Source: Pseudoalteromonas sp. N1230-9 (GTDB lineage Bacteria > Pseudomonadota > Gammaproteobacteria > Enterobacterales > Alteromonadaceae). Taken from it: a stretch of DNA of 64,000 bases. Shown piece after piece: positions 1 to 51,343 of this stretch. The DNA lies in NCBI RefSeq assembly GCF_032716425.1, contig NZ_CP090419.1, positions 649,501-713,500 of the forward strand, read 5' to 3'. The first letter of the stretch is position 1; each line of letters starts with the position of its first letter. The notes under the pieces are model-generated. The model saw only the letters and a program-made list of their open reading frames with translations, did not search any database and had not been told where the DNA came from. The position numbers were made by a program, and so were the translations under genes.

Positions 1-71
1 ATTATGGAAAAAGCCAATGTGCAATTTAAATCGGTGAACTTTATGCGTGGTCGTAGTATTCAAAATGCCGT

Positions 72-81
72 GGTGATTTTA
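72..81. repeat. Left attachment-site direct repeat
   Basis: GGTGATTTTA occurs here and again at 51094-51103. In host phoH it encodes part of the hydrophobic strand before Walker B (codons GTG GTG ATT TTA). Joining 1-81 to 51104 onward restores an uninterrupted PhoH reading (VVIL then DESQN), which identifies this repeat as the crossover region of the insertion. Confidence 0.88.
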
Positions 82-84
82 CAA

Positions 85-94
85 CCCCGAATTG
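85..94. repeat. Left terminal inverted repeat of the element
   Basis: CCCCGAATTG is the exact reverse complement of CAATTCGGGG at 51085-51094. On this side three bases (CAA) separate it from the direct repeat, while on the right side the two repeats abut with one shared base. The pair probably marks the recombinase binding arms of the two element ends. Confidence 0.75.
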
Positions 95-287
95 GGGATA
101 TTTTAAAGTTTTTACCCCCTTGTTTTTATTGGCCTGTAGAAAAAGTAAAAAGAATTTCCAAAAAAATTGATTACCTTAGCTACTCTGAGCAGTCTCTCAA
201 CAATAAACCTTTACTCAAAATTTGTAATTTACAAGAAAAGTACAACACAAAGCCTAGCAACGATTCAATCTTTTGGGAGGCTGCGTA

Positions 288-1670
288 ATGAAAAGCTCTA
301 TTGATAATCGAAATCCTCGTGTACTAGACACATCTGCATTAGTACATGATCCAAAATCTATTTTTAGCTACAAAGATGATATTTACATCTGTCTAACTGT
401 CCTTGAAGAGCTTGATAACCTGAAAGAAAGAACTAATAAATCGGTAAGTGCCGATGCCCGTATGTGCATTAGAATGCTTGAAGACATTATAAATGGACAT
501 ACAGCCGAGGAAATGGAAATAGGTATTCCTTTACCATCTACCGAAACAGCCCAGAGAGGAAAGCTTTTCATTGGAATTGACACTCAATTGGATCTGGCTA
601 AGGAGTTAAAGCACGGGATAGGAAGTGATGCTGATAACAGAATAATTAATTATGCTTTATATCTTCAAAAAGAACTCAATAAAGACGTAATAATTGTTAG
701 CCGTGACATTAATATGCGCTTGAAAGCTCGAACCGTAGGGGTCATGGCAGAAGACGTTGCCGTAGATAATCAAATATCAGATATTGATCTTTTATACACA
801 GGGGTACAAGCCTTTAAAGGAGATCTTTTTGATCGAATTAAATCAGACAAAGACTTCAAGGTTTCAGGAGAAGTTTATACTTTCCCAATAAGTCTATTTA
901 ATGATGAAGTTCAGCCAAACATGTATTGGTACGATGAAGCTGGACACATTGGGCGAATTTCAGAAGTAACAGATACTGAGGTATTCACAAAGCTATTGCC
1001 TCGTAAACAAGAAAAAGTATGGGGCATTTTGCCTAAAAATCAGCGTCAGTCGGTAGCTTTAAGCCAATTAACAGACCCTTACTATGATTTAAATATCATC
1101 CTTGGTCCTGCTGGCTCCGGAAAAACTTTTTTGGCAGTTGCTTCGGCGCTGCATCAAGTATTGGAGTTGAAAAAGTACAAAAAAATCGTTGTGGTGCGCT
1201 CCAGAGACTTTATGGACGACGATCCGGGATTCTTACCGGGGGATTTAACTGAAAAATCAATGCCTCTTCTGGCAGGTATTACTGACGCATTAATTTCGAT
1301 GCACTCGGATGATAATCATGAAGGAAATGTCTACGCTACAGTCGAGCATGTGATTGAAAAAGCCAATATAGAATTTACTAGCATGGCTTATTTTCGTGGC
1401 CGTTCAATAGACGATGCTGTTTTAATCATTGATGAAGCTCAAAACATGACTAGAGCGCAAATCAAGGGCATGTTAAGCCGTGGTGGGAAAAATTGTCGGA
1501 CAATCGTATTGGGCAACCTAGCCCAGATTGACGATAAGTTTGTAACACCTGCTTCTTCTGGTGCAAGTGCGGCTGTTAATGTGTTTCGTCATTATGAAAA
1601 AGGATCAGTGCTGATTTTTGATGAAGTAGAGCGTAGTAGCTTGGCTGAATTCACTGAAAAGAATATGTAG
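288..1670 (+). CDS. PIN-PhoH family ATPase carried by the element
   Basis: This complete 460-residue protein combines an N-terminal PIN ribonuclease-like domain with a C-terminal PhoH P-loop ATPase. PIN acidic residues are visible in VLDTSALVHDP, LEELDNLK, GSDADN and VSRDINMRL. Walker A is GPAGSGKT and Walker B is IIDEAQN, followed by LGNLAQIDD. I chose ATG 288 over TTG 273 because GGGAGG lies seven bases upstream at 275-280. The start overlaps the stop of the interrupted host phoH frame. A terminator follows at 1715. PIN-PhoH proteins are thought to act in RNA metabolism. It has the same architecture and strand as the host gene the element destroys, so it probably replaces it. It lacks the GGTGATTTTA target sequence. 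Confidence 0.93.
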   Translation: MKSSIDNRNPRVLDTSALVHDPKSIFSYKDDIYICLTVLEELDNLKERTNKSVSADARMCIRMLEDIINGHTAEEMEIGIPLPSTETAQRGKLFIGIDTQLDLAKELKHGIGSDADNRIINYALYLQKELNKDVIIVSRDINMRLKARTVGVMAEDVAVDNQISDIDLLYTGVQAFKGDLFDRIKSDKDFKVSGEVYTFPISLFNDEVQPNMYWYDEAGHIGRISEVTDTEVFTKLLPRKQEKVWGILPKNQRQSVALSQLTDPYYDLNIILGPAGSGKTFLAVASALHQVLELKKYKKIVVVRSRDFMDDDPGFLPGDLTEKSMPLLAGITDALISMHSDDNHEGNVYATVEHVIEKANIEFTSMAYFRGRSIDDAVLIIDEAQNMTRAQIKGMLSRGGKNCRTIVLGNLAQIDDKFVTPASSGASAAVNVFRHYEKGSVLIFDEVERSSLAEFTEKNM

Positions 1671-1739: not shown

Positions 1740-1864
1740 CAGAGAAGCCCGTTCCCACGAAAACAGGACGAAATGGATTTACTCTGAACTAAAAGATTAA
1801 ATATTCACATAAAAACTGAGTGACATAGGTGCGTGGCCTAGCGTTGCCGTTTTTTGGTGTATTG

Positions 1865-2227
1865 ATGTCTTTTAATAAAGAAGACCTGCTAGTAAATATA
1901 AAAAGGCAGGCAAAACGATTATCTAAATTATTAACTATTCCCCTTGGACAAGCCCAAGAAGGGGCAGCTATTTGTCTATATGGCTGTGACAGTTACAGCG
2001 ATTTACTAGTAAAAATAAAAGCTGAATCCTTTGATAACCCATTGATAGCACTGTCTGCACTCTCACCAAACTCGGAAATATTTTTAGTAAAAATATTAGC
2101 TAGCCACCTAGATAGCATTATTGGAAATTTTGAAAAAAAATTTCCCGGCTCCAATATAAATGAAGAGATGGTCGTATCCTTGTTTGGGCTTAGCTTTTCA
2201 GAGTTCAAACTCAAAATATCTACCTAA
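1865..2227 (+). CDS. Hypothetical protein with AK/LL helix motif
   Basis: A 120-residue protein of unknown function. I prefer ATG 1865 (MSFNKEDLL) over the upstream GTG at 1829, although no strong ribosome site is visible. Its N-terminal segment (QAKRLSKLLTIPLGQAQEG, then YSDLL) has the pattern of a short helical module often seen at the start of plasmid- and island-borne proteins, sometimes annotated as glyoxalase-superfamily-related. The start of the next gene (KQAKEFAELLEFPDLYAQG) has the same pattern, so the two may share this module. No signal peptide or membrane segment is seen. Confidence 0.6.
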   Translation: MSFNKEDLLVNIKRQAKRLSKLLTIPLGQAQEGAAICLYGCDSYSDLLVKIKAESFDNPLIALSALSPNSEIFLVKILASHLDSIIGNFEKKFPGSNINEEMVVSLFGLSFSEFKLKIST

Positions 2228-2434
2228 AGTTGTACAAATACGTAAGTTGTCATTTTGTTTTTTGGCGATATTATAATAAGAAGGCTGAACGGACAGCCTA
2301 CGCCTACACATGTTTTTCGCCTTGAAAACGTGAACAGTGAAGCGGAGCATCCGTAAAAATTTGGTTATTTGAACAATAAATAAAGCAATGTGTTGGTAGG
2401 CCATTGTTTATTAAAAAGTTGTTTGGAGAACTAA

Positions 2435-3472
2435 ATGATCTCACTTTATCAATTAAAGAATAAACTCAATAAACAAGCAAAAGAGTTTGCTGAGTTATTA
2501 GAGTTTCCTGATCTTTACGCCCAAGGCCTGTGGGCTAGAGGTGTTTATAACTGCCCTCATTTTTCTGATACCCATAATAGCCTCACTGAAGCATTTGAAC
2601 AGAAAAAACTGGATTCAATTCTAAAGCACGATTCCCTGAAATATTTAATGATCAACGAACACGATGATCAAGAAATTATTGAATCGCTTCATAAAGAAAT
2701 TGAGTCAATGGCAAACCGTATTGAAAGCCTGATGCTGGTAGATATTGAAACTTTAGATTTAGTTTCATTGATATACCAAGTTTTAGGGTTACCTGAAGAT
2801 GCCAAGTTTATTGTTAATACAGGCGCAGACTTCCGCTTAGAGTGGCGACCATACTTTGATGCCTTTGATGATCCGTTGATAGTTCAATATGCAGATTTAA
2901 AAGTTCATGGTTGTTATTTCAGGCTCATAGCTTCAAAGTTTCCGGTTGAAAAGCTTTCCTTGGATGACATTAAAAAATACATGTACATCAATCATGTAAA
3001 CCATAATGGTGAGTTCGAAGGCTGTATTTCTGAAGGAAATACATTTTCTAAGCATGTGCACTGGCTGGTGTTGACACTTGAATTATTCAGTAGCGGCAAA
3101 GTAAATAAGGCTCAGTTCAATCCAACAACCTTCAAAATCGAAGGTATGCGCTATTTGGTATACGGCTTCCCTCTGATTCCTTCCTTTGTATCTGATTGGC
3201 ACAAACCTAATTTGTGTTTACGTGTTAAAAATCTAGATGGCGATCAGAAGTTCATTGTTCGTATCGATCAGCAAGATCTTGTTTTTTATGCGAGGCGCGT
3301 TGATACCAATTTTTTTAACACCATCGATTATGAAAAATACATTTCGTTGTATCAATCTAGTGTTCTGTCACATTTTGATGCTGACAACAATTTACTTAAA
3401 GTTGATGGGGTTAAATATCTAAGTTTCTTTCGTCCTTTTTCTGTAGAAGATATGAAAGGAGTTCAAGCATGA
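2435..3472 (+). CDS. Hypothetical 345-residue protein
   Basis: I do not recognise this protein. It is soluble, with no signal peptide or membrane helix. The first 40 residues resemble the N-terminal helical module of the preceding gene, and a long polar helical stretch follows near residues 80-100. The start is ATG 2435, with GGAG at 2426-2429. Its stop overlaps the next start (ATGA at 3469-3472), so it is translationally linked to the pair of small genes downstream. Its position next to the element phoH suggests element-associated cargo rather than metal resistance. Confidence 0.75.
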   Translation: MISLYQLKNKLNKQAKEFAELLEFPDLYAQGLWARGVYNCPHFSDTHNSLTEAFEQKKLDSILKHDSLKYLMINEHDDQEIIESLHKEIESMANRIESLMLVDIETLDLVSLIYQVLGLPEDAKFIVNTGADFRLEWRPYFDAFDDPLIVQYADLKVHGCYFRLIASKFPVEKLSLDDIKKYMYINHVNHNGEFEGCISEGNTFSKHVHWLVLTLELFSSGKVNKAQFNPTTFKIEGMRYLVYGFPLIPSFVSDWHKPNLCLRVKNLDGDQKFIVRIDQQDLVFYARRVDTNFFNTIDYEKYISLYQSSVLSHFDADNNLLKVDGVKYLSFFRPFSVEDMKGVQA

Positions 3473-3786
3473 GACCTAGAGTAAAACTAACCAACGCAAA
3501 ACTTATCTCAATTCAATCTGATACAGAGGAAAAAGTTGAACGGGTGCTTTACGGCACATTTGCTGACGAAAATGAAAATGGTAAAGAAGGAGATGCTTTA
3601 TTCACGATAAAGGTTCTGGAAATCAATGGTCAAGAAAGTAAGTGCTTTGGTGTTGACTTTTATATCTTAGATGCTGTACCAAAAGAGTTTGATGTAAATG
3701 CATTTGAGTTTAATTTAATGCATGAGTGTATGTATTCTCCTAATAAGTTATTAGAGCTGCGAAATATGCTCCCGGCTAGTTATTAG
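3469..3786 (+). CDS. Hypothetical protein, paralogue of the next gene
   Basis: A 105-residue soluble protein of unknown function, starting in a four-base ATGA overlap with the gene before it. By eye it aligns with the following protein: KLTNAKLISI with YLKDAYIVSV, ERVLYGTF with EKIFLGEF, FYILDA with CYVIDA, and LLELRNML with VLEMREQL near the C-terminus. The two look like diverged duplicates encoded in tandem. Nothing in the sequence indicates a catalytic function. Confidence 0.65.
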   Translation: MRPRVKLTNAKLISIQSDTEEKVERVLYGTFADENENGKEGDALFTIKVLEINGQESKCFGVDFYILDAVPKEFDVNAFEFNLMHECMYSPNKLLELRNMLPASY

Positions 3787-3798
3787 TAAGGGAATACG

Positions 3799-4146
3799 TT
3801 GGATAGAATATATTTAAAGGATGCCTACATAGTATCTGTTTACGACTATAAAGAATTTGAAAAAATATTTCTTGGCGAGTTTTTATCAGGGGTGGTTATT
3901 GAAGATGAAACATTCAGGTTCCGGCCATTTCAGCAAATCGTGACTTCAAAGGTTGTTAGCAAATCTGCTGATGAGGATAAGTTAGAAATATACACACATA
4001 GTGAGAGTTGTTATGTGATTGATGCTGACCATAAGTTAATTGATATTTCGTTTGTTGAACTGGTTGTTATGAGGGCGGGAGCTTATTCGGTAGATCGAGT
4101 TTTAGAAATGAGAGAGCAACTTAAGTCTCAAAATAAAAGCCATTGA
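3799..4146 (+). CDS. Hypothetical protein, paralogue of the preceding gene
   Basis: A 115-residue protein with a TTG start at 3799, preceded by TAAGGGA about six bases upstream; no better start is available. It shares four aligned blocks with the preceding protein, at the N-terminus, the strand before the acidic middle, the Cys-Tyr-Val-Ile-Asp-Ala strand and the C-terminal helix. It ends the small cluster 1865-4146. Function is unknown. Confidence 0.6.
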   Translation: MDRIYLKDAYIVSVYDYKEFEKIFLGEFLSGVVIEDETFRFRPFQQIVTSKVVSKSADEDKLEIYTHSESCYVIDADHKLIDISFVELVVMRAGAYSVDRVLEMREQLKSQNKSH

Positions 4147-37620: not shown

Positions 37621-39381
37621 ATGTGGTCTGATAAAGAGTCAAAAATTGACTTCTTAAACTTTAATGAAACGGCTGAGTCGATTAAAGATCTTATCACTGA
37701 AAAGGAATTAATGCCTATTAGTATAGGTGTCTTTGGTGATTGGGGCGCTGGAAAATCCACGATTCTTGAACTTACCAAAGCATCTTTGGAAACTGATGAA
37801 CAAGAATATATACAAGTGCATTTCGATGCATGGACTTTCCAAGGATACGATGACGCTAAAGCAGCGCTATTAGAAACAATTGCATCTACTTTAGTAAAAA
37901 AAGCAGCAGACGATAAAAATCTAAGTGCAAAAGCAATAGAGTTTGCTGGACGAATAGATAAGATCAGACTGATGGGACTGCTAATGGATGGTGGTGCAGC
38001 ATTAGCTGGTATACCGACTATGGGTGGTATACAGAAGATCATGGGACTATTCAGTGGTGGTGACGATGGTGAACTTGATGTTGATGATGTAAAAGGTGCT
38101 GTCGATGGCGCTAAGGATGTTGCGAAGAAAAACAAAGGTTTGATCAAAGATAAGAAATCATTCTCACCTCCTAAAGAAATTAAAGAATTCCGAAAAGCAT
38201 ATTCTGATCTGTTAAAGGAGTTTGATAAGCCACTTATTGTCTATGTCGATAATTTAGATCGCTGCTCTCCATTTAATGCCATTTCAACACTTGAGGCGAT
38301 CAGATTATTTCTATTTTTACCAAATACCGCATTTGTCATTGCCGCCGATGAAGACATGATCCGTTTGGCAGTACCTGAATATCACAAAGGTGCATCTCAA
38401 CGACATCAAACTGATTATTTAGACAAGCTTATTCAAATTCCTGTGCATGTACCAAGGCCCGGTGTTCTTGAGATAAGGGCATATTTAATGATGCTCACCG
38501 CTCAAGACCACGGAGTGACAGATGCTCAGTTAGAAGCGATAAGATGTGCCCTTGAAGAATCATTAAGGCTTTCTTGGAAACAACCACAAATTACCGTTGA
38601 TGAGCTTCTTCAGGATCACGATATCGAAAAGCATTCAGGACTCAGAAGCAAATTTGTAGTTGCTGAACAGTTAGCTCCACTATTAGCTGAATCCACAAAC
38701 ATTAACGGTAACCCTCGCATAGTTAAGCGATTACTCAATCAAGTTAAGATGAGAAAGAAAACGGCTCACCGTCGAGGAATGCAGCTTGACGAGAAAACTA
38801 TCACTAAGCTGGTAATTTTTGAGAGGTGCTTAGGCACTCAGGCTACTAACAAGCTTTATGAATTAATTGATAAGGAAAACGGATATCCAAAAGTTTTAGC
38901 GGATCTCGAAAATTCAGAAGTTGAATTTGATGAAATAAAGTTACCTGAAGAGTGGAAACTCGACCTAGCTTTTATTGATAAATGGTCAAAATTACCTCCA
39001 ATGTTTACTGAGATGGATTTGACTCCAGCGGCGTATCTGAGTCGAGAAAGCATTCCAATGGGCGCTGTTAATGCGGTAATGTCAGGAGCCGCTCAAAAAC
39101 TTGTAGAAGACTTAATGAAGCAACAGGTAAGGGTCAGTGGCGTTAACTCTACTGCGATTACCACAACTCCTAAGGAAGAATACATGTCAGTCATGGATGG
39201 TTTGATTGAAAACTTTAAGTTGATTGGTGATTGGACTGAAAGACCTACAGGCATTTATGGAGCAGTGCTACTTGCCAAGCAGGATGATAAATGTTGTTTA
39301 AGTCTTCTTACATTCTTAAAAAGCTTGCCCCGACAAAGGTGGCTTAATCCAATTTTAAAAGAACTAGAGGGAACTAAGTAA
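37621..39381 (+). CDS. qatA: QatA, KAP-family P-loop ATPase
   Basis: A 586-residue KAP NTPase. Walker A is GDWGAGKST (near residue 40), and the Walker B-like segment is LIVYVDNLDRCSP (near 203). A glycine-rich hydrophobic insert (LLMDGGAALAGIPTMGG, near 121-137) may touch the membrane as in other KAP proteins. It is the first gene of a qatABCD set known as an anti-phage defence system (ATPase, unknown protein, QueC-like, TatD-like). The biochemical role of QatA is probably ATP-driven sensing or remodelling. Confidence 0.93.
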   Translation: MWSDKESKIDFLNFNETAESIKDLITEKELMPISIGVFGDWGAGKSTILELTKASLETDEQEYIQVHFDAWTFQGYDDAKAALLETIASTLVKKAADDKNLSAKAIEFAGRIDKIRLMGLLMDGGAALAGIPTMGGIQKIMGLFSGGDDGELDVDDVKGAVDGAKDVAKKNKGLIKDKKSFSPPKEIKEFRKAYSDLLKEFDKPLIVYVDNLDRCSPFNAISTLEAIRLFLFLPNTAFVIAADEDMIRLAVPEYHKGASQRHQTDYLDKLIQIPVHVPRPGVLEIRAYLMMLTAQDHGVTDAQLEAIRCALEESLRLSWKQPQITVDELLQDHDIEKHSGLRSKFVVAEQLAPLLAESTNINGNPRIVKRLLNQVKMRKKTAHRRGMQLDEKTITKLVIFERCLGTQATNKLYELIDKENGYPKVLADLENSEVEFDEIKLPEEWKLDLAFIDKWSKLPPMFTEMDLTPAAYLSRESIPMGAVNAVMSGAAQKLVEDLMKQQVRVSGVNSTAITTTPKEEYMSVMDGLIENFKLIGDWTERPTGIYGAVLLAKQDDKCCLSLLTFLKSLPRQRWLNPILKELEGTK

Positions 39382-39382
39382 A

Positions 39383-40270
39383 ATGGGTACGTCCGCATCG
39401 TCAACAGGACCGAATAACAAGAGTCCGCTAATTCCATCGTGGGCAGAGCAAGGAGACCCCGTCACGATAGAACCTGCATCAGGTACTGATGGGGATGATC
39501 AAACAGGCTTTGACAGTGGTCAAGCAGATGATCAGAATGACAATAGTAACGATATTGACAATGACAAGGTTCAACAAGAAATCGGCGGTTCACCAACAGC
39601 AACACCGCCTCCAAATAGGTTTGCTAGTGCAAGAAGAGCATTTGGTAAGTACGCTCAAACAGGTGGATCAACTTCGGATCTAAGGCGTTCATTAAAAAGT
39701 TACTCTAGAAAAGGCTCTGGTGGAGGTAAGAGTACTAGCCGGAGACTAGCAAGCGGCATAACTGCTGGTTCTGGATTGCTTGGTTTCATGCGTGGCGACA
39801 CAGTAACGGTTAATAATCAAAGCTTATCATTAGGTGATCTAACTGGGCTATCGACTGACCAAGCAATTGACAAAATTGCTAGCCATTTAGCGCCTCATAA
39901 TGCCGATTCGGATGCTGTAAGAGTTGCGTTGGATTACGCACTAGAGGAAGCATTACCCGATACTGAAGAGTTTGATCCTAACAGTTTTACCGACGAAGTT
40001 ATCCAAGAAGCCATAGGTTGTTATTTAACAGATCTTATATTTCAGGATGTGGTTGAAGGCATGGGCAGAGCTTGGTTTCATGTAGAGCCAGCAAGCAAGC
40101 ATCATCAAATGGAAGTTGAATTAAGGGAATTAATAAAAGTGATCACACAAGAACAGTTAGACAAAGTAACTAATGGCAACCCCAGTACTATCAGTAAGGA
40201 AAATATTACTAAAATTCAAGCCGATGCTATTGCCATGACAGTTGATGAGTGGGAGAGCTTTGATGACTAA
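39383..40270 (+). CDS. qatB: QatB, defence-system protein
   Basis: A 295-residue protein with a long low-complexity N-terminus rich in Ser, Asp, Asn and Gly (residues 1-75), a basic Gly/Ser stretch (RKGSGGGKSTSRR) and a folded helical C-terminal half. No enzyme motif is visible. It is identified by its place between the KAP ATPase and the QueC-like gene and by its general layout, which fits QatB. It starts one base after the qatA stop, and overlaps qatC by eight bases. Confidence 0.86.
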   Translation: MGTSASSTGPNNKSPLIPSWAEQGDPVTIEPASGTDGDDQTGFDSGQADDQNDNSNDIDNDKVQQEIGGSPTATPPPNRFASARRAFGKYAQTGGSTSDLRRSLKSYSRKGSGGGKSTSRRLASGITAGSGLLGFMRGDTVTVNNQSLSLGDLTGLSTDQAIDKIASHLAPHNADSDAVRVALDYALEEALPDTEEFDPNSFTDEVIQEAIGCYLTDLIFQDVVEGMGRAWFHVEPASKHHQMEVELRELIKVITQEQLDKVTNGNPSTISKENITKIQADAIAMTVDEWESFDD

Positions 40271-41597
40271 TTTTTATTTTAATCATGACCCAGCTAACTT
40301 GCCTGATTTTTCTAATGATTGTCATCCTGTCCAGATGTTCCATACGCATCAAAATGACATCACTAAGCACAGCTTAGTGTCAAAACAACTACTACAAACA
40401 GTTCGTGATTTGGGATTGAATGTAGATGCTGATGCAATAGATCTGATAACAATTGCAACCGCTGTTACCGCCGCTGATACATTTGAATTGAGGGATAATG
40501 CAGAAAATGCATGGGCTAGAAAAATGCATTTACATGTTCCTGTTACCGATGAGGATATGTGGAATACTGTTGAGCCTGAACTAAGTTCTTTGCTCAACTT
40601 TCTAACGGGCGATCAATGGCAGTTTACTTTTGAAAAAACAACTATGCCGATGCCGACTCCTAAAACAAGTGAGCAAGCGAAAGCAAAAGCAAAATCATTA
40701 ATTGGACTCAACTCAGTCTGCCTTTTTTCAGGAGGTCTTGATAGCGCAGTTGGTGCAATTGACATTTTAAACGGAGAGTCAGCCTTAAAACCGCTTTTGG
40801 TTAGTCACGCTTATCGTGGTGATGGCGCAAAACAGGAAGATATTAAGCATTTATTGTCCCCGCCATTCGGCGAATTGTCCTATTCAATGTCTCCTCATAT
40901 TATCAAGCAGTTAGAAGGTAAAACTGACATTAGCATGAGGGGAAGAAGCTTCAACTTCCTAGCTATGGCGGTACTTGGTATATCAGCCTTAAGAAATGCT
41001 AATTGCGATAGCAGTATTGAAACTATTGTCGTCCCTGAGAATGGCTATATTTCTATAAATCCACCGCTTACCAGAAGACGGATTGGTAGCCATAGTACTA
41101 GAACTACTCATCCTAATTTTCTAAGCAGGCTTGAATCTTTGCTTAGAGACACTGGGTTTCATGTCAAATTTGTAAACCCCTATCAATTCAAAACTAAAGG
41201 TGAAATGTTAGCGGAATGTGTTGATCAAGACGCAATTAGAAAAGCAGTTCCTCTGAGTGTTTCTTGTAGTCATTGGCACAGAGAGCATAAACAGTGTGGG
41301 CATTGTGTACCTTGCCTTATTCGAAGAGCGTCAGTTTTTCATGCTGGTTTTACACAAGATGCGCCATACAAGACAAAGCGGTTGAGAGGTCTTATTAAAG
41401 AAAAAGATACTCGCGATGATCTCCAAGCGGTTCAAACTGCCATTATTAGATTGAAACAATCCGATAACTATCGTTCTTGGCTTCGAAAGTCAGGACCAAT
41501 ACCACAAGAAAAAGATATACGAGAAAAATTAGAATCAACTATTAAGCGAGGATTGGCAGAGGTTGAATTATTTCTCCAAGCGGATAAATCATCATGA
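40263..41597 (+). CDS. qatC: QatC, QueC-like PP-loop protein
   Basis: A 444-residue protein. The PP-loop ATP-pyrophosphatase motif FSGGLDSAVGA lies near residue 160. A zinc-binding Cys set (CSHWHREHKQCGHCVPC) near 335-355 matches QueC, the 7-cyano-7-deazaguanine synthase. ATG 40263 overlaps the qatB stop; the earlier frame start at 40242 lies inside qatB. In defence systems QueC-like proteins are thought to attach a deazapurine group to a partner or nucleic acid; QatB is a candidate substrate. The stop overlaps the qatD start (ATGA). Confidence 0.93.
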   Translation: MTNFYFNHDPANLPDFSNDCHPVQMFHTHQNDITKHSLVSKQLLQTVRDLGLNVDADAIDLITIATAVTAADTFELRDNAENAWARKMHLHVPVTDEDMWNTVEPELSSLLNFLTGDQWQFTFEKTTMPMPTPKTSEQAKAKAKSLIGLNSVCLFSGGLDSAVGAIDILNGESALKPLLVSHAYRGDGAKQEDIKHLLSPPFGELSYSMSPHIIKQLEGKTDISMRGRSFNFLAMAVLGISALRNANCDSSIETIVVPENGYISINPPLTRRRIGSHSTRTTHPNFLSRLESLLRDTGFHVKFVNPYQFKTKGEMLAECVDQDAIRKAVPLSVSCSHWHREHKQCGHCVPCLIRRASVFHAGFTQDAPYKTKRLRGLIKEKDTRDDLQAVQTAIIRLKQSDNYRSWLRKSGPIPQEKDIREKLESTIKRGLAEVELFLQADKSS

Positions 41598-42325
41598 TGG
41601 ATCTTCATTGCCATGTTGATTTATATCCAGATTATCAAGAGGTATTGAACGACATAAAAAGCAGTAATTATTACGTGCTATCAGTAACTACGGTGCCGTC
41701 AGCTTTTGAAGGTACTGTCCAGTTAACAAGTGACATAAAACACTGTAAAACGGCTTTGGGTCTGCACCCTCAACTTGCTCATTTAAGGAAAAATGAACTA
41801 CCTCTATTCGATAAGCTAGTTGATAGAACTAGATATATTGGAGAAATTGGGCTGGATGGCTCAAAAGGTTATGCTGATTACTTTGATGATCAATTAGAGG
41901 TTTTTACGCATATTTTGAAAAAATGTGAAGGCTTTGATAACAAAATATTAACTATCCATAGTCTTAATGCGACAGGTGAAGTACTTGAACAACTTAAGTT
42001 ATACCCCGATGCTGGTACTTCTATTCTTCATTGGTTTTTAGGTACTAAGAAGCAAGTTCTAGAAGCCGTCGAGCTAGGCTGTTTCTTTTCTATTGGGCCA
42101 GCCATGCTTACTTCAGCCAGAGCTAAAAAAGTAATATCGTGGATACCTCAAGATAGGATTTTACTCGAAACTGATGGCCCTTTCGCCAAAGTGGCGGGGA
42201 ATATTCTGTTTCCTTCAAGTGTTGGCACTGTTACTGAATATCTGGCTGAAATTTGGTGTAAAAATAAGGCTTCGATAATTGAGCAACTGTCAGCAAACCT
42301 TAGGTGTTTAACATCAGTCAAGTAA
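41594..42325 (+). CDS. qatD: QatD, TatD-family nuclease
   Basis: A 243-residue TatD-type metal-dependent hydrolase with metal ligands in DLHCHVD (HxH), IGEIGLDG (Glu), LTIHSLNA (His) and LETDGPF (Asp). The expected second late His segment is less clear (SILHWFLG). It completes qatABCD and probably provides nuclease or hydrolase activity in defence. It overlaps qatC by four bases. No terminator is obvious downstream. Confidence 0.93.
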   Translation: MMDLHCHVDLYPDYQEVLNDIKSSNYYVLSVTTVPSAFEGTVQLTSDIKHCKTALGLHPQLAHLRKNELPLFDKLVDRTRYIGEIGLDGSKGYADYFDDQLEVFTHILKKCEGFDNKILTIHSLNATGEVLEQLKLYPDAGTSILHWFLGTKKQVLEAVELGCFFSIGPAMLTSARAKKVISWIPQDRILLETDGPFAKVAGNILFPSSVGTVTEYLAEIWCKNKASIIEQLSANLRCLTSVK

Positions 42326-44181: not shown

Positions 44182-44215
44182 CTACTACATCTAATCTACT
44201 ACTACATCTAATCTA
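44182..44215. repeat. 17-bp perfect tandem duplication
   Basis: CTACTACATCTAATCTA occurs twice in a row. The second copy overlaps the stop codon of the small coiled-coil gene (44213-44215 read TAG on the minus strand). It marks the boundary between the recombination core and the cargo. Confidence 0.9.
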
Positions 44216-44677
44216 TTGTTTCGTTGAAACTAATTCAATAATTTCACCAGTAGACGTATCCACTCTTATTTCTGTATGTTGCCCTGAGTGCTGAAGTTGA
44301 TTTTTTAAATCAGCATTAATCAGTTTGAGCTTATCTATTTCAGCGTACATTTCTTGTAATCGCACCAGTAGCTTTTCAAAATCCTTATCGATTTCCTTAG
44401 GGTCAATCTCGTTTTTTTGCTTTTCTTTAGCAAGCTTGCTTTTTAGTTCGGCTACCTTTGTTCTGAGTTGTTTTATTAAATTATCTTTATTTTTTTCTTC
44501 CCAAGTTAATTGAGCTTTTTCAATATTTTCTCGTAACTTTACCCATTTTTCTTCTTCTTTAGATAGATTTGCAATATTTCTTTTAGCTCTCGTTGCTACT
44601 GCATTTTTGGTTATCTTGCTGCCATCAGATTTCATCTCTTCAAAAGCACGTTTTATATCATCGTATGCGCTACTCAT
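44213..44677 (-). CDS. srap: Srap-like coiled-coil recombination auxiliary protein
   Basis: A 154-residue basic protein with a predicted long coiled coil (about residues 45-130: LIKQLRTKVAELKSKL, EKLLVRLQEMYAEIDKLKL). The N-terminal part has a short helical DNA-binding-like segment. Its start overlaps the intB stop (ATGA). In the SE class the fourth core gene encodes a recombination auxiliary protein; a similar small protein is TnpC of Tn554. Assignment rests on position, size and fold. Confidence 0.78.
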   Translation of the reverse strand: MSSAYDDIKRAFEEMKSDGSKITKNAVATRAKRNIANLSKEEEKWVKLRENIEKAQLTWEEKNKDNLIKQLRTKVAELKSKLAKEKQKNEIDPKEIDKDFEKLLVRLQEMYAEIDKLKLINADLKNQLQHSGQHTEIRVDTSTGEIIELVSTKQ

Positions 44678-46758
44678 GCTTGTTCTCCTTGGTTTGTATG
44701 CGCTTTGCCTTCATCTAATACATAGTCAGCTGCTGCTATATTATTTTTCCAGTGAATAGCAAATAGCTCGTAATCTTCTTGCTCTTCTTTGGTTAATGCC
44801 GCATATGCCTCTAGTTTCTGCGTTGCTTCTTTTTTTATTATTTGCCAATTGACCTTGTGGCGTTTGGTAATGATTTTACTACCACAATACACACAGCCAC
44901 TAGGGATTCCTGCTCCTTTTATCTTGCAAGCTTCTCCCGCAGTGCAGTACCCCGTAGGTAAGCCACGTATGTTTTTAATATTTTTGACGAGAAATTTTTT
45001 CAGTTCTTCAATTGAACTGAAATGGATCTGCTTAATCACAGTCGAATCTTTACTTTGACTATCAGTAATACCTATTATCAGATCTTTAGATGTTTTATTA
45101 ATTTGCTCACCAGCACCACCTTTAAGTGATTGTGACTCGGCTTCATCTATTAACTCTTCTGCAACACGGTCAATTAAAATCTCATTAAACTCTTCAGTAG
45201 TTTTAATTAAAGTTGTTGAGGCCAAAAATGCTCTTCGAGTATAAACAAACGTCATTAGGCTAGTTAAATGTTTAAATTGATATCTAATATCATCAAGCTC
45301 ACCTAATTTATTGGCAATGACAAAGTAGGCCAACGTATGTCGAAACATGTGAGCGGTTAATCTAAACGTATCGCCTTCTTCGTATGGGACACCTCTATTC
45401 TCTCCTCTAACCTCTTTGTAGTTAGATTCAAGGCGTTCAAGCTCTGCTATATCATCATCGTCTAGAGTTAAGTCAAAAAGCTCAATGTTTTCACTGTTTT
45501 TAACCTCAAATTTTGTGAATCGCCCAGCATCGCTAAAACTAACACTACAGCTACTATGTGAAACCCCGAAAAGACGGTTTCTTTCTAACCCTTCTTTCAA
45601 ATTGTGTGCTTGACTACTTGTTATATTGGCTCTGCATGAAGAAAGTACAGCTTTTGCCCTTTCTTGCATACCGATCACATATTTTTCGTAAATACCAACA
45701 CACTCATGTACTTCAGCGTTTGAAAACCATTCCATCTCAACCTTACTGTTGTCGGTTTTGGTCATAATTGCCGTAATGTAATAAATATCATCTTTGTAAT
45801 TGGCACAGCCAACCTTGCATGTAAGTACTTCGTTATATCTCATACCTGTATAGGCCAAGATATTAATGTATGTGGCTAATTTTAAATCTTCTAATTCTTC
45901 GGATAATTGAATGAATTCCTCTTCATTGGGTAAGTTTCTTACATGTTTTGCTATTAGCTCACCTGTATTCATTTTGGGCGGTGGTTCAATGGAGCCTTCA
46001 TGTAAACTATCTATTAAGCGTGCATTTAATTCTAGCCATCGTTCTATCTTATCCTTAGAGTTTTCAACTATTTTTTCTGCAAACTTCAGAATTTTTTTCA
46101 TTACTTTAGTAGGAATGACAGGGTGCGAATAAGTGACTGGTCTCGGATGGTGTAACTCGTTTAGTTGGTTAAGCACATTAATAAAAACACTACACACCTT
46201 AGGGCCAAAAAGACGAAAGCTTCGTTGCACGTCAAATAGTTTAGTAAATGAGTGTGATTGTCTGTAAATAGCTATTTTCCCGACTTCATATAAATAGTCT
46301 TTTATGAGATTCCTAATAACTAAGTCAGATTTGAACTCCAACTCATGAAATGAGTGATAACCTCTTTGTCTTAAGAAGGCTGCAATTAAATTTAGATACG
46401 TTACATCATTTTGAAGTGTAGAGATTTTTAGAGGTTTACCGCCTACAACATCACCATGTGTGAGTTTAATTAGTGAATAAATTCGAATTTGATATGCTAA
46501 TTCATCAACACCTTTAAAATTCACATTTCTTTGCGTTTCTTCATAGCTTATCCAAGTGTCATCGCCAAAGTGAATAGTGCCATGTTTAGCAATATTCAAT
46601 GCTCTGTTTTCCCACAAAGCAATCGAATTAAAAGCGCTAGTATCATCAACTTTAAAATCTTCTAACACCTGAACCAAAGGTTTTATAGTGATTTGACCTG
46701 TATGTGTTTTTACAACAGCGATATCAAGTAGTTTTGTTTTAGTTATCTCTTTGGTCAT
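44674..46758 (-). CDS. intB: IntB-like tyrosine recombinase
   Basis: A 694-residue tyrosine recombinase. Catalytic boxes: Arg in AYTGMRYNEVL (near 305), His-x-x-Arg in RLTAHMFRHTLAYF (near 471), then His in FKHLTSLMTF and Tyr in VYTRRAF (near 506). The C-terminal 150 residues add a Cys set (GYCTAGEACKIKG, GCVYCGSKI) likely to bind zinc. Start at ATG 46758 in an ATGA overlap with tfp, not the longer frame at 46779. It is the third gene of the minus-strand core. It probably catalyses one half of the strand exchange. Confidence 0.88.
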   Translation of the reverse strand: MTKEITKTKLLDIAVVKTHTGQITIKPLVQVLEDFKVDDTSAFNSIALWENRALNIAKHGTIHFGDDTWISYEETQRNVNFKGVDELAYQIRIYSLIKLTHGDVVGGKPLKISTLQNDVTYLNLIAAFLRQRGYHSFHELEFKSDLVIRNLIKDYLYEVGKIAIYRQSHSFTKLFDVQRSFRLFGPKVCSVFINVLNQLNELHHPRPVTYSHPVIPTKVMKKILKFAEKIVENSKDKIERWLELNARLIDSLHEGSIEPPPKMNTGELIAKHVRNLPNEEEFIQLSEELEDLKLATYINILAYTGMRYNEVLTCKVGCANYKDDIYYITAIMTKTDNSKVEMEWFSNAEVHECVGIYEKYVIGMQERAKAVLSSCRANITSSQAHNLKEGLERNRLFGVSHSSCSVSFSDAGRFTKFEVKNSENIELFDLTLDDDDIAELERLESNYKEVRGENRGVPYEEGDTFRLTAHMFRHTLAYFVIANKLGELDDIRYQFKHLTSLMTFVYTRRAFLASTTLIKTTEEFNEILIDRVAEELIDEAESQSLKGGAGEQINKTSKDLIIGITDSQSKDSTVIKQIHFSSIEELKKFLVKNIKNIRGLPTGYCTAGEACKIKGAGIPSGCVYCGSKIITKRHKVNWQIIKKEATQKLEAYAALTKEEQEDYELFAIHWKNNIAAADYVLDEGKAHTNQGEQA

Positions 46759-49526
46759 AGCAAACCTGTGTTTTTCCAATGAGGATGAATACCCTCTGTT
46801 CTCAATAATTCTTTTCCATCAATCACAGCTTGAGCATTAAGCTTGGCAATATCAGTTAATATTTCGTTAACTCTATTTTTCAACTGCTCTATGTTTTCCA
46901 GTTGCTCTGTTACAGAGTCAAATGTTGCGGCTGAGTTTTCCATATCAGCAACAACAAAATCCCGGTATGACAAAAGTTTCCAAACATGCAATGCGTCAGC
47001 AACACAGCGATAGAACGGACACCACAAGCATGCGTTAAAGTCGGCACATGCATGCTCGTTTGTATCTCGCTGGTCTAATAATTTCCTGTTTTGAGATTCG
47101 AATGCCACTACTGCGGATTTATCTTTTGAGTTAATGCATGTGCCATTCGGGACTTTTTTACCGTCTTCTGGTGGAGTCTGCAAAATGATTACTTTGTCGG
47201 TAACATCGCGAACAAAATAGTCTGCCATTGTTTTTGTCGCTCTGTTGATTGTCATTGCAACATCTTTGTTATCTTGCATTAAATAATGACGCAAGAACGT
47301 TTCATAAGAGTGCTTGCCAGCTTTTTGATACCACTTAAATTCTTTGGCAACTTTTCGGTAAATGTAGTTAAGCCCTGATTTTCTGATCTTTTGCGAATTA
47401 AATACGATATCACACCCAAGCTCAGTCAATATCCTATCTATAGTGGTCTTGAAACGTGATGCTGTTAATAATTGAATCTTTACTTCTCCAATACTATTTA
47501 CTTTGGGAAAAACAAAAATTCTTTTTGATAGGTTCTCAATAGAAGGGCGGTAAATAGACGTAAGTCTAGTCGCAGCCTTAATATCAAATATTACTGGTTC
47601 GACAACGTCGCCGTATAAGACGCCTTCTTTTTCTAGATCTTCGGCTTTAATTTCAAATTTATGCCATTGAGTTTGATAATTAGCTCGGCGTTTAAATAAA
47701 CGAAGAGCAGGAGTTTTACTTGAATGTAATGGCGTGTTAAAGAAAAATAAGTCGTCAGTATCAAGCTCTAGCGTAGGAGTTGAATTCCAACCAGTTTTCA
47801 ATATGACTTTTGCTGCATAAAGTGTAACTTTGTCTTTAATTGTGAGTAAGGTCTCAGAAAGCCCTTTTTCTATGTAATATGCTAATTCTACTACTTCTCT
47901 ATATGAGTAGAGTTTATCTTGATTCTGAGATAGTTGCTCTTGATGTTGTGCAGTTAATTCGGTGTTGACCGGAAAGCTTTTAATAGTATCTAGACCATAA
48001 AACGATAGTAATTTGTCGATAGCGCTCTGATATTGATTACCAACAAAAACCGACAAATCGCCTTGTTTTGATTTTAGTTGAATTGCCTCTCTTATAGCCT
48101 TTAGTATCTCACAGTTATTTTCAACAAAAGCATGAACCCCATGACTGGCAATAAGCTTCATTTGTTCATCTGTTAATGATGATGCATTTTCTTTCAATGC
48201 TCTAGCCATACTACCTATGTAACCTTTGAGAGTGACGATACCTATGCTCTCGCCATCAATTCGCTTTGTAAAAACTTTATGGTATTCGACTAGGTTTTGA
48301 TAAAATTTATAGGCATTGTCATATACCCACTCATGCTTCTGCCATTCGGTAGTGTCACTTTCTTTAAGGTAATAGCCCAATGAGTAGGGTAATAAACTTT
48401 CCTTTGCGATTTTTTCACCCGTAACAAAGTGGTAAAGGTCCAATGCAGCGTTTAGTAGCAGTAAAAACTGCTGGTTATTTTGAGTTTCTTCTTGGTAATG
48501 CTTATAAAGGTATTTAAATCCCTGAAGGCCATTTTCTGCAAACCCTTGAATTCCACGCTCACTAAGCAGCTTAATTATTGGTGATGCTACGCTACCAGCA
48601 CTATTCAACCACCTTGGAAATGATAAAGTTGAGGATCTAACTCTTGTTGTATTAGCTTCCGAAGCGCTTGCTATCTGATTTTTCAAAAAAGCATCAACTT
48701 CATTGCCAAATTTGGATGATATGCTTTGTGCATACCCTATTACTTCGGCTTCAGTTTTAAATTGATTGACTCTAGCTTTACCCCACACATCGGGTAGTAT
48801 AAATTTTAAAAAAGTACGGAAGTTGTGATTGCATATAAATGATGAAACGAATTCCCTATCCTGTAATGTTGCCAATAATGGCAGTTTGACGCGTTCAGTA
48901 TTCTTAAAAGTATCATGTAGACAAAGATTTATAATAGCTGTCGCAGTTTTGAGGATATTGTCCCCAATAGAAGAATCTTTGAGGCTTAATTCTGGAAGGA
49001 CGAGATAGTCCAGATATTTATTTAGTAATTTACGAATCTCTTTTACTTGATGGAATTCAAGTTCGAATAATTTAGTTATGTCGATTGAAGTAGCCCCATT
49101 TACTAGCCTAAAAGGAGCGTTGATAGCGTTATCATAAAAATGAAACTTAGCTAAGTTTTCTAAGGCTTCTTCTATACGAGTAGCATAACTAGGTAGCTTG
49201 ACATCATTTATTTCATTAATGCAAAAGTATTCCAGTTCTTGCCAAATTTCAAAGTCTGATAGAGCATTTAATCCCGAAGTTTGAATTGATGTCGCAGTAT
49301 CTGTACTAACCTTATTAAGGGCTAGAGGAAGAGTGTGTTGTAAACTGACACAAGCATTCCGCAAGCGACTCATTGAAATAGCAGTGTCGTCATCTGCGCT
49401 AATATTGTTTTCTTTGTCATATGCCCTGTTAAATAAAACGTCTAACTGTTTGGCTAGAACAATTGAATGAGGTTTAAATCTAGCAGGAATACGATTGGAC
49501 TTCCGCGTTTTAACTTGCTGCTGCAT
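46755..49526 (-). CDS. tfp: Tfp-like large recombinase-fold protein
   Basis: A 923-residue protein. The C-terminal third resembles a tyrosine recombinase core (IVFNSQKIRKSGLNYIY, then HSYETFLRHYL), but the usual His of HxxR reads Gln (QKIR) and no clear nucleophile Tyr follows, so it may be inactive. The last 120 residues have a Cys set (ACADFNACLWCPFYRC) suited to zinc. The first 550 residues are helical and unfamiliar. ATG 49526 chosen over GTG 49538. It overlaps intA by 17 bases and intB by four. In the SE class, Tfp sits between IntA and IntB. Confidence 0.8.
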   Translation of the reverse strand: MQQQVKTRKSNRIPARFKPHSIVLAKQLDVLFNRAYDKENNISADDDTAISMSRLRNACVSLQHTLPLALNKVSTDTATSIQTSGLNALSDFEIWQELEYFCINEINDVKLPSYATRIEEALENLAKFHFYDNAINAPFRLVNGATSIDITKLFELEFHQVKEIRKLLNKYLDYLVLPELSLKDSSIGDNILKTATAIINLCLHDTFKNTERVKLPLLATLQDREFVSSFICNHNFRTFLKFILPDVWGKARVNQFKTEAEVIGYAQSISSKFGNEVDAFLKNQIASASEANTTRVRSSTLSFPRWLNSAGSVASPIIKLLSERGIQGFAENGLQGFKYLYKHYQEETQNNQQFLLLLNAALDLYHFVTGEKIAKESLLPYSLGYYLKESDTTEWQKHEWVYDNAYKFYQNLVEYHKVFTKRIDGESIGIVTLKGYIGSMARALKENASSLTDEQMKLIASHGVHAFVENNCEILKAIREAIQLKSKQGDLSVFVGNQYQSAIDKLLSFYGLDTIKSFPVNTELTAQHQEQLSQNQDKLYSYREVVELAYYIEKGLSETLLTIKDKVTLYAAKVILKTGWNSTPTLELDTDDLFFFNTPLHSSKTPALRLFKRRANYQTQWHKFEIKAEDLEKEGVLYGDVVEPVIFDIKAATRLTSIYRPSIENLSKRIFVFPKVNSIGEVKIQLLTASRFKTTIDRILTELGCDIVFNSQKIRKSGLNYIYRKVAKEFKWYQKAGKHSYETFLRHYLMQDNKDVAMTINRATKTMADYFVRDVTDKVIILQTPPEDGKKVPNGTCINSKDKSAVVAFESQNRKLLDQRDTNEHACADFNACLWCPFYRCVADALHVWKLLSYRDFVVADMENSAATFDSVTEQLENIEQLKNRVNEILTDIAKLNAQAVIDGKELLRTEGIHPHWKNTGLL

Positions 49527-51000
49527 CTTCAGCCTCACGCATCAGTAATTCGTCAACATCACCGTAGATATCTTTCACCCACTCTGACATTGCTCCGTAT
49601 GCATCCACTGCTACACTTTTGGCAAAGTCGATGTAACGTTTGGTTGTTTTAAAACTTTCGTGACTCATCAAGGTCATTAGTGTCTGTCTGATGGAACTCT
49701 CCGATTCACCTTTGTCAATTAGGTATTTAGCGACATAAGTAGCAAAGGTAGCGCGTAAGTCATGGAATGTGCGTAATAGTATTTCTAATCCCTGCTTCCT
49801 TTGTTCTTTTCTAACTATGGAAATAGTATTCCCCGGTGTATCTTCGCTTATCCGCGATCCTGAACTATTCATAAACAAAGGAAGCGGATGTTCACTATTG
49901 TCCATACCATGATTAGTCTCATGTTTGGTACGTCGCTTCATATTTTGAATTGTCAAAGTGTGATTGTACAAAAGCTTCATTAGAACTCGCGCTATTGTTA
50001 ATCTCACTGGCTTATGTCCTTTTCGTACAATGTTCAATTTTGGAATACGTTTCTCGTTTTCTTTTTCATCAGGATCAAAAAGGTCTTTCTGGTCGATGGC
50101 TGAAATCTCAAAAGAACGAAGTCCACCTAGCAAAGCACATTGCAAATAAAGCTTATAAGTCTCTTTTTGAGCCGTATCCGTCTCCAGCAACTGTTTAAGT
50201 TCTTTTGGAGAATATGGTTGTAGATCTTTTTCGGGTGAGTCTTCCTTTTGTTTCAATGTATTTGGAATGCTCAAATTACTAACCCACTTCCATAAGCCTC
50301 CAGAACGTGTGTTGCTAGTAGGTAATTGAAACAATGAACTTACACTTGATTTAGCTTTTGTTTTAATACGTACCTGTTTGTATTCAAGTGAGAAGGGGAG
50401 GCTATCTATAGCCCCGCGCTTATGGCTCCATATATAGAATGCTTTAACAGCTCTAATTCGTTCTTGAGCGCTGTTAAAGCTTATGCGTTTAGACTTATCT
50501 TTGGTTTCGACTCTTTCACATAAATGTTTGTGATATCTCCACACAGGTAACCTAGAAATATCATCATCTACAGATTGTTTTGAAAGTGGTGCAGTTATTA
50601 CTTCAAAATAGGATGCATCATCTTTATCCAACCAATCTAAGAAAGCTTTTAAGTGCTTAGCTATACTGCAAACAGACTTAACATCTAATGGCTTTCCCGG
50701 TTGGCTGGCATGATAAGCGTCACTAAAAGCCTCATTGTCTATTTGATTCTTTTTGAGACTGAAATGACCTTCAAAGCGGTGCATTAAAAATAAGTTCATT
50801 TCTTGGCATTCGGTGAAGCGAGTCGGGTGATATAGCACTGGAAAATTAGGTTCTATTTTATCGTGCCTATATGAGTGAGTTCTGATGCCTTTTTCAGTCT
50901 TAATAGGTTGCCCTGATTTATCGAGGTGAAAAGACATTCCTTTTCCAAAGTTGACTGATGCTTTAATTATTTTAGTTTTTGTTGTATTTCGAAGTATCAT
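49510..51000 (-). CDS. intA: IntA-like tyrosine recombinase
   Basis: A 496-residue tyrosine recombinase with all catalytic boxes: Arg in LLGGLRSFEIS (near 296), HDLR in FHDLRATFATY (near 412), His in LMSHESFKTT and Tyr in KRYIDFAK (near 456). N-terminal arm and core-binding regions precede it. It is the first gene of the four-gene core, reading inward from the right end of the element. AGGTG is upstream, and a candidate promoter lies at 51028-51056. It should carry out attachment-site cleavage together with IntB. Confidence 0.9.
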   Translation of the reverse strand: MILRNTTKTKIIKASVNFGKGMSFHLDKSGQPIKTEKGIRTHSYRHDKIEPNFPVLYHPTRFTECQEMNLFLMHRFEGHFSLKKNQIDNEAFSDAYHASQPGKPLDVKSVCSIAKHLKAFLDWLDKDDASYFEVITAPLSKQSVDDDISRLPVWRYHKHLCERVETKDKSKRISFNSAQERIRAVKAFYIWSHKRGAIDSLPFSLEYKQVRIKTKAKSSVSSLFQLPTSNTRSGGLWKWVSNLSIPNTLKQKEDSPEKDLQPYSPKELKQLLETDTAQKETYKLYLQCALLGGLRSFEISAIDQKDLFDPDEKENEKRIPKLNIVRKGHKPVRLTIARVLMKLLYNHTLTIQNMKRRTKHETNHGMDNSEHPLPLFMNSSGSRISEDTPGNTISIVRKEQRKQGLEILLRTFHDLRATFATYVAKYLIDKGESESSIRQTLMTLMSHESFKTTKRYIDFAKSVAVDAYGAMSEWVKDIYGDVDELLMREAEDAAAS

Positions 51001-51084: not shown

Positions 51085-51094
51085 CAATTCGGGG
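51085..51094. repeat. Right terminal inverted repeat of the element
   Basis: CAATTCGGGG is the exact reverse complement of CCCCGAATTG at 85-94. Its last base is also the first base of the right direct repeat, whereas three bases intervene at the left end. The unequal spacing fits a short coupling sequence brought in from a previous site. Confidence 0.75.
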
Positions 51095-51103
51095 GTGATT
51101 TTA
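51094..51103. repeat. Right attachment-site direct repeat
   Basis: GGTGATTTTA, identical to 72-81. The next codons, GAT GAA AGC CAA AAT, restore the Walker B motif DESQN of host phoH. Confidence 0.88.
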
Positions 51104-51343
51104 GATGAAAGCCAAAATTTAACGGCTTCACAATTGAAGACCATTATTACGCGTTGTGGTGAAGGAACCAAGCTCATATGTTCAGGTAATTTGGCGCAAA
51201 TTGATAGTAACTACCTAACTCCAGTTACCTCAGGCTTAACTTACATTGTTGAACGCTTTAAAGATTTTGAAGGAAGTGCCACCGTAAACTTAAATGGTGT
51301 TGTTCGTAGTCGCTTGGCAAGCTTTGCTGAAGAAAATTTATAA
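51095..51343 (+). pseudogene. Host phoH 3' remnant
   Basis: This encodes the C-terminal 82 residues of the host PIN-PhoH ATPase: VILDESQNLTASQLK, then CSGNLAQIDSNYLTP and the terminal SRLASFAEENL. It aligns with the end of the element phoH (IIDEAQNMTRAQIK, LGNLAQIDDKFVTP, SSLAEFTEKNM). A GTG at 51095 could formally start it, but there is no ribosome site and no promoter of its own, and Walker A is missing. It is a dead fragment separated from its 5' part by the element. Confidence 0.93.

Follow-up and report, generated by a model that had tools for sequence, protein, structure and literature searches.

The window analyzed here is a stretch of 64,000 nucleotides (C1:649501-713500) from the 4.63-Mb, two-contig genome of Pseudoalteromonas sp. 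N1230-9. It opens inside a host PIN-phoH gene (phoH2) that is divergent to rapA and is interrupted by a large integrative element carrying a second phoH of its own (cargo phoH). The features are as follows.

1 to 81, plus strand: last bases of the host phoH2 5′ part, to codons V-V-I-L; the remainder is upstream of the window
82 to 51094, no strand assigned: SE-type integrative element, ~51 kb; junctions placed against the same-species empty site, seven other Pseudoalteromonas insertions, and Psychrosphaera
82 to 289, plus strand: fusion tail, host frame open for 68 codons, stop overlapping the cargo start as TAATG, GGAGG inside
85 to 94, plus strand: left terminal repeat CCCCGAATTG
288 to 1670, plus strand: cargo (rescue) phoH, 460 aa, PIN and PhoH ATPase domains, checked catalytic positions kept
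1829 to 2227, plus strand: 132-aa ORF after the rescue phoH, no Pfam match
44213 to 44677, minus strand: srap, 154 aa, assigned to the SE core by its place and length; the gene order matches PMC10214605
44674 to 46779, minus strand: intB, 701 aa, tyrosine recombinase, SE core
46755 to 49538, minus strand: tfp, 927 aa, assigned to the SE core by its place and length
49510 to 51000, minus strand: intA, 496 aa, tyrosine recombinase adjoining the right junction, SE core
51085 to 51094, minus strand: right terminal repeat CAATTCGGGG
51095 to 51343, plus strand: host phoH2 3′ part (VILDESQN...AEENL, then stop)

The host gene reads ..NAVVIL to window position ~81 and then passes into element sequence (QPR..), and its 3′ part resumes ~51 kb further on. 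About 358 host codons lie upstream of the window (match C1:648427-649584; the window starts at 649501), and the exact crossover falls within 73-81 and 51095-51103. A genome of the same species (G135) has the empty site, its uninterrupted phoH reading GCCGTGGTGATTTTAGATGAAAGCC; along with identical junctions in several independent genomes, this led us to reject an assembly artefact. A second host phoH elsewhere in the genome, which we take to be YbeZ-type, is untouched (353-aa frame, 39% over 246-442).

At the right end, the four core genes intA-tfp-intB-srap are ordered and overlapping, with Phage_integrase domains in two of the proteins, the 927-aa protein between them, and the 154-aa protein after. 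Imperfect inverted terminal repeats (CCCCGAATTG left, CAATTCGGGG right) were found in all eight Pseudoalteromonas insertions before Walker B, and a 6-9 bp zone resembling GTKATTTTR, at most a candidate for the 6-bp spacer (with footprint and fingerprint) of SEs, is present at both junctions, its native side being ambiguous. Gene order, domains, sizes, terminal repeats, and the target specificity reported below all fit, suggesting that the window element belongs to the SE type. Relatives of tfp at ~30% identity, all partial, occur on Vibrio and other plasmids, where they are annotated as hypothetical.

The element also carries a Qat anti-phage system (QatA, QatB, QatC, QatD; window 37621-42325; strong PADLOC matches), and genes whose starts match occur near the right end of the six-gene-module element of G048 (L138, described below) and in G121 (L142). 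Judged by eye from translations, window 4300-36900 holds a large heavy-metal cargo, with two RND efflux operons, a multicopper oxidase, a P-type ATPase, CDF transporters, and MerR regulators. Small ORFs of 132, 345, 105, and 115 aa follow the rescue phoH (window 1829-4146) without Pfam matches. Some of them recur in elements with other recombinase modules, where the 132-aa ORF again lies behind the rescue phoH, and they are possible partners of the entry end.

The cargo protein combines a PIN domain (PIN_4) with a PhoH ATPase that has its catalytic residues, the combination that defines PhoH2. It is only ~40% identical to the host PhoH2, and thus represents a divergent isoform of the gene it replaces and not a copy. 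We checked twelve positions whose roles we assume to be those of PIN acidic residues, Walker A, and Walker B: eleven are identical in 54/54 aligned rows, host included, and the twelfth, R449, is identical in 53 (L183 has a gap there). No cargo row contains an internal stop. NF053827 is the best NCBIfam match of both proteins, and neither reaches its equivalog cut-off (680 bits; cargo 153, host 201), so the curated equivalog name fits neither. The original prediction had the host gene cut just before the DE of Walker B, a complete PIN-PhoH on the same strand within 210 bases, and Walker A, Walker B, and the PIN acidic residues intact. The junction and the G135 empty site agree with the first, the cargo start 206 bp from the cut with the second, and the eleven invariant positions with the third.

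We surveyed 108 Pseudoalteromonas genomes, of which the host phoH query and the cargo phoH query each match 106. A cargo-type phoH (93-100% identical) is carried by 12 genomes, and exactly those 12 have a cut host phoH beside it. The cut lies before Walker B in eight (G000, G001, G006, G025, G030, G049, G105, G124) and right after Walker A in four (G019, G038, G048, G145). In the other 94 matching genomes the host-type match extends to query residue 459-460, and none of these genomes with an intact host phoH carries a cargo phoH. The coincidence of cut and cargo gives a Fisher value of 4.5e-16 on 106 genomes with relatedness ignored; related genomes are not independent samples, and the counts are to be read in that light. 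The check for an interrupted phoH lacking a cargo gene covered this genus, and two of the 108 genomes fall outside the tally. In G121, the SE core and a 3′ remnant were found with the left end unassembled; its assembly (93% complete, 220 contigs) yielded no host 5′ part and no cargo phoH. In G139, only the last ~35 phoH2 codons remain, next to a histidine kinase (L143:6208-6311), a natural loss of the gene. Together with the wild-type-like growth of M. smegmatis lacking phoH2, as reported in PMC7390352, this suggests that PhoH2 may be dispensable.

Approaching the association from the integrase side, a search for IntA among 395 genomes of the family (E 1e-60 or better) returned 16 genomes. For fifteen of these close IntA genes, a 3′ remnant of the host phoH is found no more than ~450 bp away, a target specificity as in SEs, with remnants starting at residue 381-384 (nine), 412 (two), or 422 (four). 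The sixteenth (L243; part of L156) lies inside a phoH element, away from the remnant. All 16 genomes, matched by coordinates, carry a cargo phoH. In eight of them (G000, G001, G025, G049, G154, G172, G173, G178), a single site accounts for both the 5′ cut and the 3′ start. The two disagree in six (G150, G158, G160, G166, G176, G181), and these composite loci therefore hold stacked elements, whose cargo phoH may stem from another element; G153 and G454 were counted neither as clean nor as composite.

The search that the original prediction proposed, for SE cores next to phoH, thus recovers the association, and its central idea, that the element targets phoH and pays with a substitute, is supported by the co-occurrence of cut and cargo in the genus and in all 16 IntA genomes. 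It had asked whether a phoH homologue always occupies the opposite end: the cargo gene lies opposite intA in the eight Pseudoalteromonas insertions before Walker B, and in the six composite IntA loci the cargo phoH cannot be assigned to the SE. Members lacking phoH cargo, which it had named as telling against it, were not found among the 16 IntA genomes, but only eight of these are clean cases, and G121, with its left end unassembled, may be such a member.

The cargo phoH is not confined to one insertion site. Host cuts lie near residue 288 (after Walker A), at 386-393 (before Walker B), at 414-415, and at 425-439, and loci with a third operon are cut at 328-329, so that one cargo family serves about five sites within the host gene and several recombinase modules. 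At 3′ remnants starting at 381-384, 412, and 421-422 we found SE cores, or in any case an IntA, with 37-100% identity to those of the window. Beside remnants starting near 287 we found a six-gene module encoding proteins of 1092, 789, 254, 147, and 744 aa (the last a RecD2-like helicase) and an integrase-like protein of 449-472 aa. No similarity between this module and the SE core was detected. It is present in G019, G038, G048, G145, G147, G151, G152, G164, G171, G163, and G165, and in G159, where it is cut by the contig end; the remnant start deviates in G152 (301), G159 (247), and G163 (240). In the insertions of G159 and G163 (L205, L225), the 3′ piece begins at 240-250, before the 5′ cut, so part of phoH is duplicated. 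Having found the cargo phoH with other modules too, we rejected a linkage of the cargo gene to the SE core alone.

The six-gene module has almost no annotation. In L138:9142-18148 the 1092-, 789-, 254-, and 147-aa proteins and the RecD2-like helicase are followed by the integrase-like protein, which is whole in L139:7709-9127. The 789-aa protein has 32 relatives, the named ones called hypothetical or Tyr recombinase, and no NCBIfam match was found at E 0.1 for the 1092-, 789-, and 254-aa proteins, a library from which Gmt models are possibly absent. One protein of the module at codon 287 is weakly VPA1267-like (22.7 bits against a cut-off of 90). Through it, gamma-mobile-trio islands are presumably a possible comparison; given this weak match and the lack of NCBIfam matches, we do not claim that name for the module.

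The third operon, in L159 and L177, encodes proteins of 777, 760, 183, and 480 aa, the last with a tyrosine recombinase domain (L159). In L159:2932-9532 it lies directly behind the host 5′ piece, and its 760-aa protein has relatives at 24-28% on Providencia and Pseudomonas plasmids, called integrase. Further composite loci are those of G148, G149, and G161, and no core was present in the stretch fetched beside the 3′ piece for G148, G149, G153, G156, G161, G162, G170, L173, and L191. A separate cut site at residues 301-309 was considered and dropped, since L153, L154, L165, and L166, though perhaps not L171, are cut right after Walker A and their alignments overrun.

A search of 5.8 billion proteins placed family members at 64-100% identity in Alteromonadales, Vibrio, and neighbours, with a few at 44-55% and then 43% or less, among the best 120 of 2946 matches. 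An order-wide search of 394 genomes gave, among the rows listed, eight matches at 74% or more, the next being at 45%. Among 72,556 plasmid records we found 617 matches, every one below 60% identity, and no rescue-type phoH. A contig scan gave 54 loci, of which 47 full or nearly full members (L146-L191, L194) were kept; L192 and L195-L199 (~30%) and the fragment L193 were dropped. In 32 of the 47, a large truncated PhoH2 precedes the cargo phoH on the same strand at a distance of 36-386 bp, and in two more (L159, L177) the truncated PhoH2 is 7.2 kb upstream, with the recombinase operon between. Seven (L158, L160, L167, L174, L175, L176, L184) lie at the rapA locus with a decayed PhoH2 fragment or none, two (L149, L163) are at contig edges, and four (L181, L187, L188, L194) have no cut PhoH2 nearby. 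Overall, rapA is on the upstream side in 40/47 loci. Ferrimonas marina has an intact host phoH2 and, elsewhere, a 67% relative.

The connection between the broken gene and its substitute extends to the reading frame. In 17 of 19 SE-like left ends, eight of them closely related Pseudoalteromonas insertions, the cut host frame continues into the element and is closed at TAATG or by an ATGA overlap, or stops no more than 2 nt from where the cargo gene starts; L156 and L172 have gaps of 126 and 114 nt. The 18 tails longer than 120 nt represent 13 distinct sequences, and tails run for 44-70 codons without a stop where the other frames hold 2-8 stops. Exceptions are L173, in which one other frame is also open, and L183, with a tail of three codons. 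The SE core itself was not seen for L172, L173, and L191. Most SE-like left ends have a GAGG-type ribosome site before the overlap, and the tails fit translational coupling from the host frame to the cargo phoH, as far as sequence can suggest it. In elements built on the six-gene module, a gap of 62-130 nt and a separate ribosome site are the usual arrangement.

The cargo phoH of G000, G105, and G124 is identical over 1380/1380 nt. Their host genes are not: over the 5′ part of phoH, G000 is 13-14% different from G105 and G124 (dS 1.1-1.2). Likewise, G006 and G030 have identical cargo genes beside host genes that are 77% identical. With a rescue dS of 0 against a host dS above 1 in several pairs, we rejected a single old insertion inherited vertically; the cargo phoH has been acquired repeatedly and independently. 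It is also under purifying selection, with a dN/dS of ~0.05 in the pair G000-G001 (0.032/0.622). The cargo of G001/G049, from SE insertions at Walker B, matches that of G038/G019, from six-gene-module insertions at Walker A, at 97% identity and that of G000 at 88%. A quick tree built from 51 cargo-phoH rows, with 12/40 inner branches weak, requires at least six changes of recombinase class, the classes being taken from the left cut, and at least nine changes of site.

In some genomes the cargo-type gene appears to have taken over. It is the sole PhoH2 found, beside rapA, in G155, G157, G167, G168, G169, and G177, the last keeping a 61-residue host phoH fragment besides. IntA was found in none of nine genomes of this rescue-only set (these six with G174, G180, and G183) by a query that works elsewhere, and neither was the 789-aa protein, in a search run without a positive control. 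In G155, host fragments on both sides within ~2.4 kb indicate that the element is gone; in G157 and G168, housekeeping genes, recognized by eye, stand on the other side of the cargo-type gene, and in G167, metal-resistance cargo still adjoins it. The substitute itself becomes a target: in G165 (L170), a six-gene-module element lies inside a cargo-type phoH (5′ piece 79%, 3′ piece 86% cargo-type) with another phoH behind it, and L172 has an apparent tandem of cut host gene, cut cargo gene (79%), and intact cargo gene, with identical 394-nt leaders. Insertions into cargo-type phoH are thus themselves followed by another cargo phoH.

Taken together, these findings make it very probable, in our view, that different elements share the cargo phoH as a dedicated rescue of the whole gene, a function that we infer from gene arrangement and sequence. 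The integrases would recognize conserved codons of the PIN-phoH beside rapA, and entry would destroy the gene. The first gene inside the entry end is a divergent, complete PhoH2 in the same direction as the host phoH, so that host transcription could run into it. In the SE-type, the host frame is kept open through the short element tail to a stop on or next to the rescue start codon, and translating ribosomes would therefore probably be handed from the cut gene to the rescue gene. If the cargo gene is expressed and enzymatically equivalent, as this reading supposes, the host would retain PhoH2 function and the element would go on having a target that almost all hosts in the genus possess; rescue may be the reason for keeping the gene. 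The damage would be permanent, since SEs regenerate no empty site according to PMC10214605.

Two other explanations deserve attention, although both seem unlikely to us. The cargo phoH could serve the element itself, as an RNA helicase or nuclease for copy-out or against host defence, with phoH merely a safe conserved site. That it comes first inside the entry end in most loci would suit such a role, and auxiliary phoH genes are also known from phages (PMC6351560). However, the cargo gene tracks the target and not one recombination system, since SE cores and a six-gene module for which no similarity to them was detected both have it at phoH, and it persists as the sole PhoH2 where neither core protein was found. 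Equally improbable is allelic replacement or a moron, in which a better PhoH2 benefits the host and loss of the old copy is incidental. The genomes that retain the element-type gene alone could be read in this way, and Ferrimonas marina with both genes would fit, but an advantage by itself accounts neither for a position directly after the cut at each of several sites nor for the overlap of stop and start, and a merely superior gene sits poorly with its absence from every genus genome with an intact host phoH. Hitch-hiking by descent from one phoH-carrying ancestral element, with no functional link to the target, is already disfavoured and highly improbable: the cargo genes are homologous, some identical, and composite loci show elements recombining and stacking at phoH, but left ends, recombinases, and cut sites differ, the recombinase class changes repeatedly on the quick tree, the low dN/dS shows constraint, and the tail frame stays open through diverged sequence.

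The dedicated rescue could be part of something wider, which we offer tentatively as a possibility somewhat short of an even chance: a guild of elements in which one substitute-phoH family circulates among tyrosine-recombinase elements, licenses the phoH hot spot, holds the host hostage, and ends in take-over of the locus. With the native gene lost for good, loss of the element would mean loss of PhoH2, which would amount to addiction with no toxin involved.

Mobile elements are commonly assumed to spare their hosts, either by settling in harmless places or by restoring gene ends. The elements at phoH seem to follow another strategy, breaking a widely conserved gene and bringing a complete, divergent replacement, one that is common to recombination systems without detected similarity, tied in the SE-type to the reading frame of the broken gene, and able to persist as the sole copy. 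This would explain the mobile-element hot spot beside rapA and provides a natural experiment on gene replacement, and the poorly understood role of PhoH2 becomes testable through what the elements preserve.

We found no paper on phoH as an element target supplied with a substitute, and a phoH entry in the insertion-site supplement of PMC10214605 is possible. Like the SEs of PMC10214605, the window element has intA-tfp-intB-srap at one end, inverted terminal repeats, site-specific insertion, and a gammaproteobacterial host. It differs in its size (~51 kb against an SE median of 15.7 kb) and in the target substitute at the intA-distal end, which goes unmentioned in the accessible text of that article, where the word phoH is absent. 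According to PMC10111431, attP replacement segments at icd, tRNA, and other genes likewise make good the gene entered; these rebuild the host gene itself, whereas here a whole isoform of ~40% identity stands beside the wreck and serves several cut sites. The backup late genes of helper-embedded PICIs described there resemble our case in that an element may carry an intact second version of the gene it interrupts, but there it is prophage genes that are hit and the second version is described as non-essential, whereas here the target is a chromosomal gene and the association is near-constant. Finally, GInts (PMC5385486) are also multi-recombinase islands, and members with very low mutual identity enter the same target gene (ssb); they spare the target by inserting at the gene end or by an outward promoter, whereas the elements at phoH bring a substitute gene instead.
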